This document shows positions 3,742 through 55,992 of a stretch of DNA of 64,000 nt, one piece after another. The notes under the pieces are model-generated. The model worked only from the letters and a program-made list of their open reading frames with translations. It did no database searches and was not told the DNA's origin. The translations under genes and the position numbers were made by a program. Source of the stretch: Rosistilla ulvae (GTDB lineage Bacteria; Planctomycetota; Planctomycetia; Pirellulales; Pirellulaceae); NCBI RefSeq assembly GCF_007741475.1, contig NZ_CP036261.1:3038001-3102000 (forward strand), read 5' to 3'. The first letter of the stretch is position 1, and each line of letters starts with the position of its first letter.

Positions 3742-4215
3742 TTACGCCTTCATGAATCGCTTTTCGATTTCCAGCAGCTTGGCCAGGCGTCGTGCGTGGC
3801 GTTCCGACGGGGTGTAGCGAGCGTTCATGAATGCGCGAATGCATTCCATTGCTAGCTCGGGGCCGATGATCCGGGCTCCGATGCACAACACGTTCATGTC
3901 GTCGTGTTCGACCCCTTGGCGGGCGGAATAGCTATCGTGGCAGAGTGCGGCGCGGATGCCGGGGATTTTGTTAGCTGCCACGCTGACGCCGACGCCGCTG
4001 CCGCAGACCAGGATCCCGCGGTCGGCTTTTCCCGATCGGATCGCTTCGCCAACGGCCAGGGCGAAGTCGGGGAAATCGCTGCTGGTTTCATCGTGAGCGC
4101 CACAATCGATGATCTGCAGATGCTGATCGGTGAGGGTTTGAGTGACCACCGATTTCAGCGGGAATCCGGCGTGATCGCCGCCGATGGCGTAAATCAGAGA
4201 AGATGCGTTGCTCAT
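3742..4215 (-). CDS. rpiB: Ribose 5-phosphate isomerase B
   Basis: A 157-aa RpiB/LacAB family protein, interconverting ribulose 5-phosphate and ribose 5-phosphate in the pentose phosphate pathway. The family marks are GGDHAGFPLK near the N-terminus, ADRGILVCGSGVGVSVAANK in the middle with the catalytic Cys region, and RAALCHDSYSARQGVEHDDMN. Length is normal for the family. The frame extends 48 codons upstream, but the ATG at 4215 gives the canonical N-terminus, so I chose it. It is divergent from rpsA, with about 290 bp between the starts. Confidence 0.93.
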   Translation of the reverse strand: MSNASSLIYAIGGDHAGFPLKSVVTQTLTDQHLQIIDCGAHDETSSDFPDFALAVGEAIRSGKADRGILVCGSGVGVSVAANKIPGIRAALCHDSYSARQGVEHDDMNVLCIGARIIGPELAMECIRAFMNARYTPSERHARRLAKLLEIEKRFMKA

Positions 4216-4508
4216 GGGCTGTGTTAAACGATCCTGGTTCTGGTTTTGTTTGAATTTGATTGGAATATTGCCGGGGGAAACGACGACGTCCGTTGTGGCG
4301 ACTAGGCGATTCTGATAGCCTTTCGTGTTGCTATCGCTGTTTTTTATTGTCAATCGCAAGGGTCGATTGAGAGCAGCTCGGCAATACTCTAACCCCGCTG
4401 GGATCGCGTTTTAGCTTCTCATCGAAGCTTCGTAAACATGGCGTCTAAATCAAAAGCCGTTTACGACAAGCAGCCACGCGAATCCGATCCTCAGCAACTG
4501 AGTCTTTC
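4216..4508. other. Divergent rpiB/rpsA intergenic region
   Basis: It must hold promoters for both rpiB and rpsA. I could not assign convincing -35/-10 boxes. No AGGAGG-like site lies before the rpsA ATG. Confidence 0.4.
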
Positions 4509-6281
<1,773 letters not shown>

Positions 6282-6340
6282 TCTCTGTTGCAAGCGTCGT
6301 CATCGAGTATGACAACGCAGCGACATGAAGCATTCAAACG

Positions 6341-6373
6341 AAACACCCAGCCGATTCGGCTGGGTGTTTTTTT
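6341..6373 (+). terminator. Intrinsic terminator of rpsA
   Basis: ACACCCAGCCGA pairs with TCGGCTGGGTGT in an almost loop-free stem and is followed directly by a T tract. It lies about 60 bp after the rpsA stop. This is the clearest Rho-independent terminator in the window. Confidence 0.92.
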
Positions 6374-6519
6374 ATGGAGTCGCCTCGAATCGCTGCGTCG
6401 ATTTTCAGGGCATGCGGCAGCGCGGCGAAAAGGTTGGGGGGGCGATTGCCTGCGCAGCAGGGGGCAGACGCGGCCGCGATTGAAAACTCGGGATGATGCC
6501 GCGGCCACCGGGCCGCAGG

Positions 6520-50301: not shown

Positions 50302-51204
50302 TCATTCGTTCGGGATGGAGCCGGAACCGAATTGGCCTTTCTTACTGGCCGGTTTGGGGGCCGCGGATCCGTCGGCGGCTTGTGAGTTGAGAGACCAGTC
50401 GTAGTCGAGAAACGCGACCGATGTTTCGTTGCGGGAAGCTCGGAGGATCGCCTGTTTGACTCCGTCGTCCTCGACTCGATCGGCTAGCCATGGCAGATAA
50501 CCGCCGACGGGGGCCCAGTCGCCGCCGTACCAGTCCAACAGCGGACTCAGTCGGAGTGTGTCGCTGGCCGCGTCATAGGTCACGTATTTTGTTTGGTTTG
50601 CGAATTGAATGCTCTGGTCCTCTAACTGTTTTGTTAGGCGGGGCCCAGTGTAGGCTTCGGCCCGGATCGCCGGGCAACTCTTCGCAGCGCAAACCAAGGC
50701 GACGTGGATACGAGGTTCGCGAAATCGCTTGCGGATCAACTCGTGTTCGATCTCGTTAAGGCTGAACGTTTCGCCGTACAGGATGTGTTCTTTCAGATCA
50801 AAAAACTCGGTCCCTTCGACGTTGTAGTTCATCACCGAATCACGAATTTTGTGAGTGATGACGCCATTGATGACAAACGCGTTGTAGGCATTGCAAAACA
50901 GTGCCAACTGATCCGCCGACGTGGTCAACTTGCTGGGCTCTGATTCGGAAAGCTGCCGCAAGTAGGTGCGAAAAAGGTGATCGCGAGCGATGCCGTCGTA
51001 GTCTACCAACCCGTTCTCGACGTGTGTCTTGAGTAGATAGTCCCATAATGCATGGTCGACGCCCGACGCATCGGGATGCGGCGTCGGTTTGGTCGACAAC
51101 TGCACCTCTTGAAACGCTTTGGCCGCGACGACGATCGGTACGGAGAACGAAACGATCGCCAGCCAGAAAAAGGGGCCATAATAGGACGCTTTGCTTTTAT
51201 TCAT
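50302..51204 (-). CDS. DUF547 family exported protein
   Basis: A 300-aa protein with an N-terminal signal or anchor segment (about 12-28). The DUF547 core is LALFCNAYNAFVINGVI, then HVALVCAAKSCPAIRAEAYT, including the conserved CxxxxCP. Function of the family is unknown. AGGAA precedes the ATG. It begins 47 bp after the flavoprotein/polyferredoxin gene and likely shares its transcript. Confidence 0.88.
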   Translation of the reverse strand: MNKSKASYYGPFFWLAIVSFSVPIVVAAKAFQEVQLSTKPTPHPDASGVDHALWDYLLKTHVENGLVDYDGIARDHLFRTYLRQLSESEPSKLTTSADQLALFCNAYNAFVINGVITHKIRDSVMNYNVEGTEFFDLKEHILYGETFSLNEIEHELIRKRFREPRIHVALVCAAKSCPAIRAEAYTGPRLTKQLEDQSIQFANQTKYVTYDAASDTLRLSPLLDWYGGDWAPVGGYLPWLADRVEDDGVKQAILRASRNETSVAFLDYDWSLNSQAADGSAAPKPASKKGQFGSGSIPNE

Positions 51205-51251: not shown

Positions 51252-53657
51252 TCAGACAACTTCGCGTTTTCGAGGTTTGATCAATGGTGAGTTGACGATA
51301 GGAAGCGATGCTGACGCATTCTGTTTTGCGATGGGCAAGTCACCTAGATGCAGGATCTCCATCGGGCAGCGAACAATGCACTCATTGCAGCCGACGCAGG
51401 GTGAATCCTCCAAAGTGATCGGTTCGCCTTTCAACGCGCTCGATTTGATGTCGATCCCCATCTGGCAGTACTGATTACAAACGTTGCAGTCGATGCACTT
51501 GCCTTTCTCCGGCGTGATTTTGAATTGAGACCAGCGTCCCCAAAAGTTCATCCAGAACGCCAATGGACACCACATCCGGCACCACACACGTTGTCCAAGG
51601 AACGGATACAGGCCGATTGCGACCGCGCCGGCCAGGGCCGTTCCAACCCACAAGTTGTATTGCCCCAGCGGTCCTTCAAATCCGTAGAGATCGGCGATCG
51701 TTGCAACGGTGGCCAACGCGACAAAGATGAAACCCATCCGCTCCATCTTGCGAGGCGTATCACCCTTGGGCCCGCGGTGGCGAAAACCATTGCCGACGGT
51801 TTCTGCGAGCGCTCCGCACGAACAGATGTACGAGCAGTAGATCTTTCCCCAGCGAATCGTCACCAGTGGAATCACGATGAAGGTCAGGACAGCTGCCCAA
51901 ACGACACCGACGACCGCGACGGTATGCCACCAGGCGGGATCGCCGGGCCCAACCGCTGGATCGACGTTGAAAGCTCCCATGTTCAAAGGCCACGCATTCA
52001 GCGATCGAGTCAGCAGCGGTGTCCACGGATTGCGACCGATGAAGACAGCAAGGAACGTCGGAATCCCCCACCACAAGGTCCACTGCGTTGCGATGATCGT
52101 CAGGTTCCGCCGCCAGATCAGCCGATGGTTTGCCTTGATCGCCCAGTACAAACCGAATCCGGCGATCGCCGAGAAGTAGACCAGGTAATAGAGTCCGTAG
52201 GCATTGCTGAAGTACTTCGGGACAACGTTGTACAACCAAGTAAAACCTGGCACAAAGTAGGGGCCATCGCCTGCTGCAGATGGATCGAGTGTGAGGACGT
52301 CCGGTGCAACCAGTGATCCTGCATACAGCAAACCGCCGGCGATCAGCATGGAGGTTGAGTGCGGTATGTTGAACAACGCAGCATGCCCGCGCGATTGCAT
52401 GTTTCCATTGATGAGTTTCAACGCCAGCAGGCTGAGCCAAGCGATTGGCAGGACGGTTCCCGTCAGAAACGCGGCGAAGCCCAGTTGTGTCGGTCCTACG
52501 ATCGACTCCAACCCTGGTAGCAACAGCTTGCCCTCGCCCGCCGCATCGGGGTGAAACACAAAGTTTTTTGAGTAGAAATAAACGAAGATGCCGACGAGCA
52601 AACCGACGACAGACAACGCCAGCCGCTTGCCAGTCCAAACGCCGTCGAGTTCCAGCCCCATATCCATCAGGAAATCGACCGGCGGAAGCGTTCCTATCTG
52701 CACGATCACATGGTCGTTCGCCAACGTGTGTGATTGCCCATCGACGTCGATATCGACTTCGTCGTCGCGTATCGCTTTGAGATTGCTCTGGTACAGAATG
52801 TTCAGCCGACCATCGCGTTGGGCCTGTTCAATCAACTGGCGATTTTCTTCTTTGGCTCGAAACAGGTCATCGCCGCGATACGAAAGGGTGACCCGGTTGT
52901 GTGGCATCAACAGCAGGGCTGCTTCGATCGCCGAGTTCCCTCCACCGACGACCATGATGTCGGCATCGTTGTAGTCTTCCGGAGTGTGCAGTCGGTAGGT
53001 GACCTTTGCAGCGTTGTCAGCACCGGGGCACTCGAGTAGTCGTGCCTGACCTTGCCGCCCAACTGCGACCAGCACTTGTTGTGTCGGAAACGATTTCCCC
53101 GATTTCGTCTCGACCTCGAACCGCCGCTCTCCAACCTTCCGTACGCGATCAACCTCAGTCTCTTCCTTGATGTGCAACTTCCTTTCGTCAACCAAGCGAT
53201 TGACTCGGGCCAGAAATTCGTCCTTATCCAAGTCTTCGTCGAAATCGAGCTTGCTCTCATTGCGCACAAACTGCGGCTCGGCGTAGACCTTCTTACCGGG
53301 CGGAAAGCTGCGAACGGTACTGGCAATTTTGTTGCGTTCGAGAACGACATACTTCAGCCCCCGTTCCTGCGCCTCCATCGCGGCGGACAATCCGGCAGGT
53401 CCCGCACCGATGATGACGAGGTCGAGCCGCCCATCATCCGCCGCCGTCCCATCATCGAATTTCATCTTCGCGATGACGCTGGCGCCCTGATTCGCGGCCA
53501 CTTTGACCAGCGGCAGCCCCGTGACATCGCCAATGACGTAGATGCCTTTCACGCTCGATTCGTAACGGCCATTGACGATCGGCAGGATTTCCTGCGGCGG
53601 GACCGTGGCAAAATAAGACGTCTTCTTGCGGTCCGACTTGGTTACGTTTGCCGCCAT
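51252..53657 (-). CDS. Flavoprotein fused to a NosR/NapH-like polyferredoxin membrane protein
   Basis: An 801-aa protein. Residues 20-66 hold a thioredoxin-reductase-type ending, SSVKGIYVIGDVTGLPLVKV. The FAD Rossmann motif follows at 80-92 (LVIIGAGPAGLSA) and the NAD(P) motif at 233-247 (DIMVVGGGNSAIEAA). After residue 340 six or more membrane helices occur. CSYICSCG (608-615) and WCRMWCP (692-698) are NapH/CcoG-like. Two 4Fe-4S clusters follow: C721/724/727/731 and C754/757/760/764. It would carry electrons from NAD(P)H through flavin to iron-sulfur centres at the membrane; the acceptor is unknown. GGGAGGT precedes the ATG. The domain order is unusual; see findings. Confidence 0.9.
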   Translation of the reverse strand: MAANVTKSDRKKTSYFATVPPQEILPIVNGRYESSVKGIYVIGDVTGLPLVKVAANQGASVIAKMKFDDGTAADDGRLDLVIIGAGPAGLSAAMEAQERGLKYVVLERNKIASTVRSFPPGKKVYAEPQFVRNESKLDFDEDLDKDEFLARVNRLVDERKLHIKEETEVDRVRKVGERRFEVETKSGKSFPTQQVLVAVGRQGQARLLECPGADNAAKVTYRLHTPEDYNDADIMVVGGGNSAIEAALLLMPHNRVTLSYRGDDLFRAKEENRQLIEQAQRDGRLNILYQSNLKAIRDDEVDIDVDGQSHTLANDHVIVQIGTLPPVDFLMDMGLELDGVWTGKRLALSVVGLLVGIFVYFYSKNFVFHPDAAGEGKLLLPGLESIVGPTQLGFAAFLTGTVLPIAWLSLLALKLINGNMQSRGHAALFNIPHSTSMLIAGGLLYAGSLVAPDVLTLDPSAAGDGPYFVPGFTWLYNVVPKYFSNAYGLYYLVYFSAIAGFGLYWAIKANHRLIWRRNLTIIATQWTLWWGIPTFLAVFIGRNPWTPLLTRSLNAWPLNMGAFNVDPAVGPGDPAWWHTVAVVGVVWAAVLTFIVIPLVTIRWGKIYCSYICSCGALAETVGNGFRHRGPKGDTPRKMERMGFIFVALATVATIADLYGFEGPLGQYNLWVGTALAGAVAIGLYPFLGQRVWCRMWCPLAFWMNFWGRWSQFKITPEKGKCIDCNVCNQYCQMGIDIKSSALKGEPITLEDSPCVGCNECIVRCPMEILHLGDLPIAKQNASASLPIVNSPLIKPRKREVV

Positions 53658-53740
53658 CGTACCTCCCTGTACGGATTGAGATTGATTTCGAGAGCGGCGT
53701 TTCCTGAAGTTATCAAAGAGCGATCACGCCAACGGACCGA

Positions 53741-55261
53741 TTATGGAATCCGTTCCAATTGCTGTCTGTGAACTGACGCACCAACGGACGACGGAGAGAG
53801 AATTGGCGTCTGAGCGTGACGCGGCGACTGAAGCAGCAACGCCAAGACATTGTCGGTAAAGACGGGATCCGCGGTTAGTTTGCGGTGGCTCGTGTGCAGG
53901 AACGTGACGCTATCCCAACGAATGGGGGAAGCGGGGCGTGTTGAAACGGCGTCGACAGGCTGCTCGGTCATTACTGCGCTGTGCCGCGTGGTCGTGTCGT
54001 CACCGGGCACGCTGTGCGCGACTTCCAGCTGTCCGGATTCCGTGTCGATGGACATCACGGCGGGCGTTTCAATCGCGTCGCCAGCGTACAGATGCAACGT
54101 GACTCCCGGCGGTGGCGTCGCCGGAATATCGAGCGACTGGTGGAATTGCTTGGCTTTGAGCAAACACTTGCGTTGATGATCCAGAGCAATACACTCGCGC
54201 GCTTCGCGATCAGCAACATCCGGCAACAGTTCTTGCAAGATGGCGTCTTGGTTCGGATCGGCTAATCCCCATTTCATCTGCCGCCACAGCTCTGGATCGT
54301 AAAAGTCATATGCTTGATCGGAATTCTTGGCATCGACGAGCGTTTGATGACGCGGCCGCGGTAACATCTGGTAGATCGATGGCATCGTTCCCAACCCCGC
54401 CGGTGGATAATAGGGAAGCACGCGCGACAACTGATGTCCATTGACCAGGTCCCGAAGCGCGAACGCCGATCCGGCATTGGGAGTTCCGACCATCACCAAC
54501 CGCTCCACGTTTCTCGCTCCCTCCCAGTCCAGCGTTGGCAACGAACCATCTTCGGGCAGCTGCTGCGAACCGTACCGTAAGTAATATCGGGAGAGCAGGC
54601 CGCCGAGAGAATGCGCCACGATGTCGAATCTGATCTCCGTGTCGGTGATTCCGTACCGGTTTGCGTACTCAGCTCGAATGTATTCACGCTTCTCGGCGAT
54701 GAATCGATCGAGCAACGCCGCGTTCTCCGCGACGTCTCGCCGCCAGTCGTAGTCGAACTGGAAACAGGTGAAGTGCTCGTCCCCATAATTGAACTCATCC
54801 GATTTGGGAGCGGAGGAATCGCGATATCCACCGACGCCGAGGGTTTGAAGTATCTGGTTGTACGCTTGCAGTTCCACCGGTATCCCGAACACGCTCAATT
54901 CCAAGTACGCCAGTGTTCCATCGCTGTGAACGCTGTCTCGCAATTGTGACAGCGGAACACCCTGGCCCATCGGCAACGATACCTCTGCAAGATCGTCGGA
55001 TTGCTGACGACGAAAACGAATCTTGTCGTACTTCCCCCAGACGATCTTACCGGTCTCTTCATCGACCAGCCGTGAACCCAACACGCCCGGGATCACGATC
55101 ACCGGATTGCGTTCATAGTCGGGCCGCTGCGCCAGAGGGTTGTAGATCGCGGCAAGCGACGAATTGGGATGGTCCGTCGCACAGCCGGGGACAAACAAGA
55201 GCAGAGCCAACGCGGGGAGCAACAGACTGTGCGCACGAAGAGAAGATCGAACCGCCATCAT
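53741..55261 (-). CDS. LCAT-like lipoprotein acyltransferase/lipase
   Basis: A 506-aa exported protein with a lipobox ending in Cys27 (LLFVPGC). NPVIVIPGVLGSRLVD starts the alpha/beta hydrolase of the lecithin:cholesterol acyltransferase type. The nucleophile is in DIVAHSLGGLLSRYY (GxSxG as AHSLGG). WRRDVAENAALLDRFI and MVGTPNAGSA are further family marks. It would hydrolyse or transfer acyl chains of membrane lipids at the cell surface. I chose the start at 55261 because it gives the lipoprotein signal; the frame extends upstream to 55522 without sense. Confidence 0.85.
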   Translation of the reverse strand: MMAVRSSLRAHSLLLPALALLLFVPGCATDHPNSSLAAIYNPLAQRPDYERNPVIVIPGVLGSRLVDEETGKIVWGKYDKIRFRRQQSDDLAEVSLPMGQGVPLSQLRDSVHSDGTLAYLELSVFGIPVELQAYNQILQTLGVGGYRDSSAPKSDEFNYGDEHFTCFQFDYDWRRDVAENAALLDRFIAEKREYIRAEYANRYGITDTEIRFDIVAHSLGGLLSRYYLRYGSQQLPEDGSLPTLDWEGARNVERLVMVGTPNAGSAFALRDLVNGHQLSRVLPYYPPAGLGTMPSIYQMLPRPRHQTLVDAKNSDQAYDFYDPELWRQMKWGLADPNQDAILQELLPDVADREARECIALDHQRKCLLKAKQFHQSLDIPATPPPGVTLHLYAGDAIETPAVMSIDTESGQLEVAHSVPGDDTTTRHSAVMTEQPVDAVSTRPASPIRWDSVTFLHTSHRKLTADPVFTDNVLALLLQSPRHAQTPILSPSSVGASVHRQQLERIP

Positions 55262-55992
55262 GGCATCGATGCAGCAATACGCCACCAGCTGAACCGACCG
55301 ATGAGACTCGGTTGCATTGTTAACGATCCAATGCAGCGGGGCACGAGCGAACCAAGCAGTGATGGCAAACACCGCCCAGGCGGCAGGAATGGGATTGTCT
55401 TTCGTCCATGGTTGCATCATCGAGGTCGTCCGTGACCAATTGAAAGAGACGGTAGCCAAAGCTACGTTTTCGAGCATCAGCAGCGCGATGTGCGAACGGA
55501 TGCCAGGCTTCCGCTCCGCCATTCGCTATTCAGTGGCCATCGGAATGCATGTTTCCAATCGTCGCATCCGCAGACTGCCGAGTCTGTGAGACTCAACACA
55601 ATTGCTGGTGAACTGAAGATGTGCCGCGTTGCTAGCAGGAGTTTTCCGGTTGAACGAAGCAGACCGGTTTGTAATTTCCCGTATTCCTCGGGCTGGAAAT
55701 GCGTCGTCCGATTGAGGTGACACACGGCGACAAACCAAACTCAAACCTCGCCCCGACCATTCTCGCGAGCTGGCTTACGATAGATAGGACGCTTCACGTC
55801 ACCTGACGTCGTTAAACGGTGAACTGCGACAACGGTGAGGCACTTCACAGACCACAGGCTCCGGTATTTCGTAAATCAATCCTCACCCGTGTGTGTCGGC
55901 TCACACAGCAAACGGACTTGCCTAGCCGATAGGAACAAGACAGAAGTTCTGGTTCCTCGTTCCCCCGTGCCAACCTTTCGTAAGGATGCCCA
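55262..55992. other. Intergenic region without a supported gene
   Basis: Open frames of up to about 90 codons occur on both strands, but none has a start signal and a family. A minus-strand extension of the LCAT frame (to 55522) could be a short missed gene. No repeat is seen. Confidence 0.45.

Follow-up and report, generated by a model that had tools for sequence, protein, structure and literature searches.

A Probable Circular Permutation in a Natural NAD(P)H Flavoprotein of YpdA/Bdr Type Joined to a NapH-Like Membrane Iron-Sulfur Module

The Locus and the Encoded Protein

The DNA analyzed here comprises 64,000 nucleotides of Rosistilla ulvae (Planctomycetota; RefSeq assembly GCF_007741475.1, contig NZ_CP036261.1, positions 3,038,001 to 3,102,000); this whole stretch is called the window, and the coordinates of the features listed below refer to it. 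On its minus strand lies a gene encoding a protein of 801 amino acids, which joins a flavoprotein of the thioredoxin reductase fold to membrane helices and two [4Fe-4S] motifs. Enzymes of this fold belong to the best-studied flavoproteins and are described with the C-terminal segment of the flavin adenine dinucleotide (FAD) domain, here called the tail, as the last part of the chain. In the present protein a segment of this type comes first. The rearrangement is genuine, conserved among relatives and found widely, and the protein is very probably a natural circular permutant of a flavoprotein of YpdA/Bdr type, using reduced nicotinamide adenine dinucleotide (phosphate) (NAD(P)H), to which a membrane [4Fe-4S] module resembling NapH is fused. 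The gene and its parts are the following:

51252..53657, minus strand: whole gene, 801 amino acids, with tail, FAD/NAD(P) core and membrane [4Fe-4S] module (NapH-like) in this order (translated open reading frame, domain models)
53662..53668, minus strand: AGGGAGG, ribosome-binding-like, 5' of the ATG (read by eye)
53463..53588, minus strand: tail, residues 24-65, probably the displaced C-terminal FAD-domain segment, now N-terminal (tail profile, AlphaFold2 (AF2), couplings)
53526..53531, minus strand: G43-D44, presumed flavin-binding GD motif in the tail (conservation in aligned rows)
53427..53462, minus strand: linker, residues 66-77, bridging the former C- and N-terminal chain ends (predicted local distance difference test (pLDDT) about 82-89 by block)
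52635..53426, minus strand: core that binds FAD and NAD(P), residues 78-341, similar to YpdA/Bdr (Pyr_redox_3, 6.5e-42; fold match to Bdr, 7a76)
53391..53408, minus strand: FAD GxGxxG motif GAGPAG, residues 84-89, with Ala88 at the YpdA cysteine site (translation, alignment)
52857..52877, minus strand: R261...R267 of the NAD(P) domain, HRRxxxR-like with different spacing (conservation)
51513..52634, minus strand: membrane module, residues 342-715, eight predicted helices, second half NapH-like (profiles, AF2, hydropathy)
51816..51836, minus strand: cysteine loop C608-C612-C614, predicted to be cytoplasmic (class B conservation, predicted topology)
51567..51581, minus strand: C693 and C697 in CxxxCP, the other cysteine motif at the membrane edge (36/36 class B rows)
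51465..51497, minus strand: [4Fe-4S] motif CIDCNVCNQYC, residues 721-731 (motif, conservation)
51366..51398, minus strand: [4Fe-4S] motif CVGCNECIVRC, residues 754-764 (motif, conservation)
53741-55522, minus strand: LCAT-like gene, upstream neighbor (Pfam)

The first-pass annotation, made from the sequence alone, had described tail motifs ahead of the FAD motif and a core leading straight into membrane helices and two iron-sulfur motifs, and the translation bears this out. Within the tail (ILPIVNGRYESSVKGIYVIGDVTGLPLVKVAANQGASVIAKM), the motifs SSVxGIYVIGD (SSVKGIYVIGD, S34-D44) and VKVAANQG (V51-G58) precede GAGPAG, which is followed by the NAD(P) motif GGGNSA at residues 238-243; the first membrane helix starts at about residue 343, and the two CxxCxxCxxxC motifs follow. 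The same annotation had offered, as an alternative, that the N-terminal piece is what is left of a tandem pair's first module after truncation, in which case the second module would have to work without a tail. No upstream sequence for a missing module was found: an in-frame stop 23 codons 5' of the ATG closes the reading frame, and with the GGGAGG at the start site and the LCAT-like gene upstream, nothing therefore points to the loss of a first module. An assembly or frame error in the source genome was ruled out by orthologues of 97% (G002) and 76% (G015) identity, which are free of internal stops; the latter, from another genus and aligned over residues 7-793, keeps the tail-first order.

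Domain Order and Homology of the Tail

Two NCBIfam models, YpdA and TRX_reduct, align to residues 79-338/339 of the protein and end there at profile positions 262 of 316 and 251 of 300, respectively; since both stop before their own ends, their C-terminal part is missing after the core. The N-terminal residues 23-49 in turn align to residues 268-294, in the C-terminal tail, of the solved flavoprotein 5ygq, with 6.1 bits, which taken alone is not significant. A profile built from permuted tails matches the tails at the C-terminal end of canonical-order relatives from Pseudomonadota (loci L282-L288) with 38-57 bits, a Sphingobium protein (L319) with 45 bits and the remaining canonical proteins with 6-23 bits. 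This homology to tails that stand at the C-terminus is the strong evidence for a permuted tail. In L282-L288 and in L319 the matching tail is placed after the core; the sequence that lies beyond it in L282-L288 was judged only by eye.

A search for the same order in other genomes, as had been proposed, found it: among the best 80 of 488 relatives on genome contigs, 79 loci are tail-first. The single canonical locus among these is L034, from a Woesearchaeon, which is 42% identical to the R. ulvae protein over the core and aligns to the permuted profile first with positions 63-322 and then with 13-49, i.e., core before tail. That L034 is a mis-assembled oddity was ruled out by L138, a protein from a second genome with 70% identity to L034 and the same canonical order. 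Counting all loci collected, as distinct open reading frames (ORFs) with a core match of E <=1e-25, gave 269 ORFs. Of these, 218 are tail-first and 43 canonical; in 8 no tail was detected, although the available sequence of two among them, L240 and L242, is open at its 5' end. None has both, a zero that hangs on a short tail profile. These proportions are not natural frequencies, since most of the searching was done with permuted profiles. The count replaces an earlier one (112 permuted, 46 canonical, 13 no tail), which used a looser cut and kept duplicates. None of the 269 ORFs has a duplicated core, and the 218 permuted ORFs showed no tail behind the core. As a description of the present protein, the truncated tandem pair thus finds no support, with 0/269 duplicated cores and no two-sided tails. 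Thus, the segment order is rotated relative to canonical homologues (L034; tails of L282-L288), and segment and core each occur in single copy.

Predicted Fold and Residue Couplings

Whether the tail completes the flavin fold had been named as a matter for structure prediction, and AF2 places it confidently in a model of residues 1-345 (pLDDT 88.5, predicted template modeling score (pTM) 0.84; 71-row alignment). Ten-residue blocks over residues 21-70 of this model have pLDDT values of 84, 96, 75, 92 and 89. The whole-protein model, calculated from a 77-row alignment, reaches pLDDT 72.6 and pTM 0.75, with the membrane half being weakest. The larger alignment holds the query and 76 of the 80 genome-contig rows, without L034, L044, L054 and L064; the smaller holds the query and 70 rows and additionally leaves out L058, L059, L060, L062, L071 and L089. 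Both models show short strands at residues 25-26 and 337-338, matching the canonical hairpin that the permutation cuts; the cut is in the hairpin that precedes the canonical tail. In the fold search, residues 75-339 superimpose on Bdr from residue 1 to 266-271 (Z 21.9-22.0, root-mean-square deviation 6.1-6.2, 259 residues aligned), and the Bdr tail and the N-terminal piece stay unmatched because the aligners follow chain order.

Direct-coupling analysis was performed with 219 permuted rows (effective number 201) on 50,433 residue pairs, in which 12 of 335 columns filled to less than 70% were dropped and all rows were kept. The tail-core pair I62-L80 ranks first among all pairs (3.26) and A63-E95 ranks sixth (1.87), while the best tail-core value in the controls, twelve swaps of tails between near relatives and six random shuffles, is 1.51. 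G43 is present in 219/219 aligned permuted rows and D or E at position 44 in 218/219, a G-[D/E] pair which we take to be the flavin-binding turn. Residues 24-65 are thus predicted to fold back onto residues 78-341 at the position of the canonical C-terminal tail, so that the segment would complete the same domain as far as prediction and coupling tell.

Besides the permuted profiles used in gathering the ORFs and the shortness of the tail profile, several points weigh against this reading. The block containing the GD motif (41-50) has the lowest pLDDT of the tail. The docking rests on pLDDT and pTM, secondary structure and couplings, with superposition in chain order only. VIA, applied to the whole-protein model, pairs a few C-terminal residues of Bdr and of several thioredoxin reductases with residues at about 723-735, a match which is unexplained and which cannot appear in the domain-only model. 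Only two tail-core couplings exceed the controls; D44-F118 (1.50) as well as L25-L337 (1.15, rank 44), both of which would agree with the model, lie inside the control range and are not evidence. Moreover, the couplings would be identical in a domain-swapped dimer, in which the tail is needed but docks on the partner protomer. Such a dimer would agree with low-molecular-weight thioredoxin reductases being homodimers according to PMC8564101, and couplings are blind to the difference between contacts within and between chains; as the AF2 monomer models place tail and linker confidently and the linker is short, we consider the swap improbable.

We likewise give very little credit to the tandem remnant described above, against which the G-[D/E] pair kept in all but one row and the two tail residues that co-vary with the core above the controls also speak. 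What can be said for it concerns origin: duplication followed by truncation is a plausible source of circular permutants and the free trees described below leave the deep branching unsettled. Truncation of a tandem pair may have been the route by which the permutation arose. The conserved order, the close homologues of canonical order, the confidently placed tail, the two couplings and the kept motif together argue for the circular permutation, one of the two readings offered by the first-pass annotation.

Chemistry of the Flavin Half

The annotation had called the flavoprotein thioredoxin-reductase-type, which holds for the fold; its closest kin are the YpdA/Bdr proteins rather than thioredoxin reductase proper. 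The FAD/NAD(P) core finds its best match in the Protein Data Bank, both by sequence and by fold, in Bdr (7a76, 7a7b, 7apr), and it scores 145.5 bits with the YpdA/Bdr model TIGR04018, below the cut-off of 339.9. The protein differs from YpdA/Bdr by its N-terminal tail, its fused iron-sulfur module and the replacement of a cysteine. YpdA contains a conserved cysteine in its FAD motif (GGGPCG) that has a functional role. At this site Ala, Ser, Gly or Thr is found in 219/219 permuted rows, with Ala in the query, and Cys in none. In the same rows, G84, G86, G89 and an acidic residue at position 107 are kept throughout. The redox-active CxxC of the low-molecular-weight thioredoxin reductases (TIGR01292) is absent from the query, whose flavin half has Cys210 as its only cysteine, and a CxxC occurs in 4/219 rows, at about three different places. 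As neither this motif nor the YpdA cysteine is present, a thiol-reductase function was judged unlikely.

With low-molecular-weight thioredoxin reductases and thioredoxin-reductase-like ferredoxin NADP+ reductases, the protein shares the fold (Z ~18-20), the GxGxxG motifs and two conserved arginines of the NAD(P) domain, while it is distinguished from them by domain order, by the lack of the redox CxxC and by an iron-sulfur protein that is covalently attached instead of separate. The arginines, R261 (212/219 rows) and R267 (209/219), resemble the HRRxxxR motif, which in low-molecular-weight thioredoxin reductases binds the 2'-phosphate of NADPH, as stated in PMC8564101. From this resemblance NADPH appears the likelier substrate than NADH; naming the two arginines outright an HRRxxxR motif was softened to a likeness since the spacing differs, which also weakens the case for NADPH.

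Natural permutation in an electron-transfer flavoprotein is not without parallel: PMC11334425 describes circularly permuted, double-flavinylated FMN-bind1 proteins, which differ from the present family in having their own fold, covalent FMN and an extracytosolic location. In searches of the open-licence literature of PubMed Central, which leaves out most subscription journals, no paper among those listed dealt, judging by title and opening of the abstract, with a permuted pyridine-nucleotide flavoprotein.

The Membrane Module and a Proposed Electron Path

The second half of the protein had been taken for a polyferredoxin, of which the two [4Fe-4S] motifs stand, and the assignment is refined here to a NapH-like module in which five more cysteines are invariant besides those of the two classical motifs. 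Among named membrane models, NapH/MauN (TIGR02163, E 5.4e-13, 47.8-49.1 bits against a cut-off of 213.05) and NapH (NF007013) come nearest, both below cut-off, and Fer4_5 matches as well. The likeness to the NapH/MauN type lies in the second half of the membrane module, the paired cysteine motifs and the two [4Fe-4S] motifs; the differences are extra N-terminal helices, the covalently joined flavoprotein and the score (49 vs 213 bits). In the 36 rows of the architecture to which the query belongs (class B, see below), 13 cysteines are invariant (36/36), namely C608, C612, C614, C693 and C697 together with the eight that make up both [4Fe-4S] motifs, so that every row combines two such motifs with cysteine pairs at the membrane edge, a combination which we take to define NapH. 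No invariant histidine was seen in the membrane half of these 36 rows. Eight helices were picked from the AF2 model, at modest confidence, together with hydropathy; in the resulting topology both termini and the 608-614 loop, which contains four K/R residues, are predicted to be cytoplasmic. The search for a solved relative of the membrane half returned only short ferredoxin matches (best E 0.002), an absence that proves nothing.

As the best mechanism we infer an NAD(P)H-to-membrane electron conduit. NAD(P)H, more likely NADPH, would reduce FAD in the cytoplasmic module, to whose FAD site the G-[D/E] turn of the tail would be supplied from the N-terminus. The FAD, without a dithiol center, would hand electrons singly to the two [4Fe-4S] clusters, from which they would reach a site formed by C608, C612, C614, C693 and C697 at the membrane face; a quinone or a partner in the periplasm might be the next acceptor.

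The opposite direction may also be envisaged, with a quinol or a periplasmic donor feeding electrons through the membrane module to FAD and generating NAD(P)H. It would fit with the nearest membrane models, albeit below cut-off, being those of NapH/MauN and of NapH, the ferredoxin subunit of a quinol dehydrogenase, and the sequence sets no direction; an energy source that could drive NAD(P)H formation is not known here, none having been searched for, and low-molecular-weight thioredoxin reductases, to which the flavin half is related, take NADPH as donor according to PMC8564101. We regard reverse flow as a minority option, at perhaps one chance in a few, and keep the flow from NAD(P)H to the membrane as the preferred reading.

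Two Architectures Around the Cut

The permuted proteins fall into two architectures. Class A proteins (~440 amino acids) consist of an N-terminal extension with [4Fe-4S] motifs, the tail, the FAD domain and the NAD domain, with which they end. Class B proteins (~700-850 amino acids), including the one from R. ulvae, begin with the tail, followed by the FAD and NAD domains, membrane helices and two [4Fe-4S] motifs. A motif search in the 218 permuted ORFs located the iron-sulfur motif ahead of the tail in 161 ORFs, behind the core in 36 and at neither place in 21, all 21 of which are open at the 3' end of their stretch. Therefore, the two classes carry the fused iron-sulfur partner on opposite sides of the cut, which falls in one and the same hairpin. 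With its new chain ends there, the flavin domain might offer an attachment port, to which class A would attach a ferredoxin on one side and class B a membrane iron-sulfur module on the other. An Emticicia protein has ferredoxin matches and, by eye, a hydrophobic N-terminus before the tail, and ends after the NAD domain.

Some permuted ORFs are larger. Those of 1149-2040 codons from Myxococcota (matches L312, L316 and G494) hold the permuted core plus further domains. The class A-like ORF L118 (958-3447) has weak C-terminal matches of ferric-reductase/DUF4405-like type below the Pfam cut-offs and reads as if a b-type membrane cytochrome had been fused to a class A-like protein.

Occurrence and Origin of the Permutation

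Permuted loci with a named phylum (n=77) are distributed over 12 phyla. In samples of single phyla, each of which contains one center genome already known to carry the gene, a match of E <=1e-40 starting at profile position <=22 was counted as permuted. By this measure the permuted form occurs in 49/199 genomes of the source phylum (52 with any match), in 24/198 of the phylum of Emticicia (any match 47), in 4/200 of that of Sphaerotilus (any match 10) and in 56/188 of that of Kofleriaceae, one of them weak (any match 59). A genome of the same genus, G001, contains no orthologue (best match E 1.2e-4), and the occurrence is therefore patchy. Relatives from Pseudoalteromonas and Emticicia lie on plasmid records, both under the deposited name "NAD(P)-binding domain-containing protein" only; annotation by such generic names misses the permutation. 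In a search of viral contigs, whose loci entered only the tree and the order counts, 7/34 loci match from residue 13 on and are thus tail-first, and 27 match only from residue 44 or beyond. The seven environmental contigs filed as viral that encode tail-first flavoproteins (L154-L160) are as likely to be host DNA as to reflect carriage by phages.

Two quick trees were calculated without ORFs lacking a tail and without partial cores; the second also left out canonical rows with a core score <=105 bits and took 69 rows from the 216 eligible permuted ones, made up of 25 selected loci and others drawn at random, and 25 from the 43 canonical ones. When free, both place canonical groups among the permuted ones, several at weak forks, so that the permuted rows do not come out as one group, a further point against the main reading. 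Constraining the 69 sampled permuted rows to a single group raises the log-likelihood by 16.8 over that of the free tree (approximately unbiased test, p-AU 0.79), and one origin of the permutation is favored. Independent permutations in the class A and class B lineages would account for the mixing in the free trees, in the second of which the permuted label needs three changes; the constrained tree and the shared hairpin cut speak against them, and we hold separate origins to be rather unlikely. For one origin, we lean, if only slightly, towards a broader view in which an ancient and probably single permutation gave rise to a large cross-phylum family, the cut served as a plug-in port for ferredoxins upstream and membrane iron-sulfur modules downstream, and the family acts as a general NAD(P)H gateway to electron transport in membrane and envelope.

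The permuted form in at least 12 phyla indicates that the fold tolerates, and evolution has kept, a rearrangement at the FAD site. If the conduit exists as proposed, it would be a widespread and uncharacterized entry of NAD(P)H electrons into membrane and envelope electron transfer.

Neighboring Genes and Canonical-Order Relatives

Downstream of the R. ulvae gene lies a recurrent neighbor:

50302..51204, minus strand: DUF547 gene, 300 amino acids (PF04784, 2.6e-24)

A profile built from six such DUF547 neighbors (the source locus being L001) matches ten loci; the other four are L002, L105, L120 and L197. The recurrence includes L036 from Lentisphaerota, and the N-terminus of the DUF547 protein reads by eye as a membrane anchor.

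Class A loci (L024-L103, e.g., L039, L086 and L043) often form gene clusters. Among the best 80 of 488 relatives, a b-type-cytochrome-like membrane gene is found at 53 loci and multiheme cytochrome c3/c7 genes near the class A flavoprotein likewise at 53; these cluster counts rest on crude gene calling. Twenty loci share a further gene without a Pfam match, which by eye is outer-membrane-barrel-like. The class A cluster resembles an unrecognized NAD(P)H-to-envelope electron conduit.

The canonical flavoproteins of Pseudomonadota have the closest tail sequences found, and the Sphingobium member has neighbors of the class A kind. This Sphingobium protein (WP_231568103.1, L319) differs in its order, FAD, NAD and tail, followed by two cNMP-binding domains and several iron-sulfur matches. 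3' of its gene come a gene that matches cytochrome b561 below threshold, homologous to the b-type-cytochrome-like neighbor at 53 of the 80 loci, and an annotated cytochrome c3 family gene. Through these shared b-type-cytochrome-like neighbors, canonical and permuted flavoproteins occupy what looks like one system, and relatives of both orders beside similar neighbors make the evolution of the permutation directly testable. The ORF of L319 spans 4001-6517; its annotated start (4040) falls inside the FAD domain and query homology begins at 4001, so that the deposited start is probably too late.

The canonical L034 (3641-6891) directly follows two genes, which we take, by eye, to be a 2-oxoacid:ferredoxin oxidoreductase pair and which suggest a ferredoxin:NADP+ reductase role for L034. 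At 17 loci (L035, L042, L047, L078 and others) the cluster includes a gene of the type with Sel1 and ankyrin repeats, Pfam-checked for L042 only, which lies near the flavoprotein gene, often directly 3' of it.

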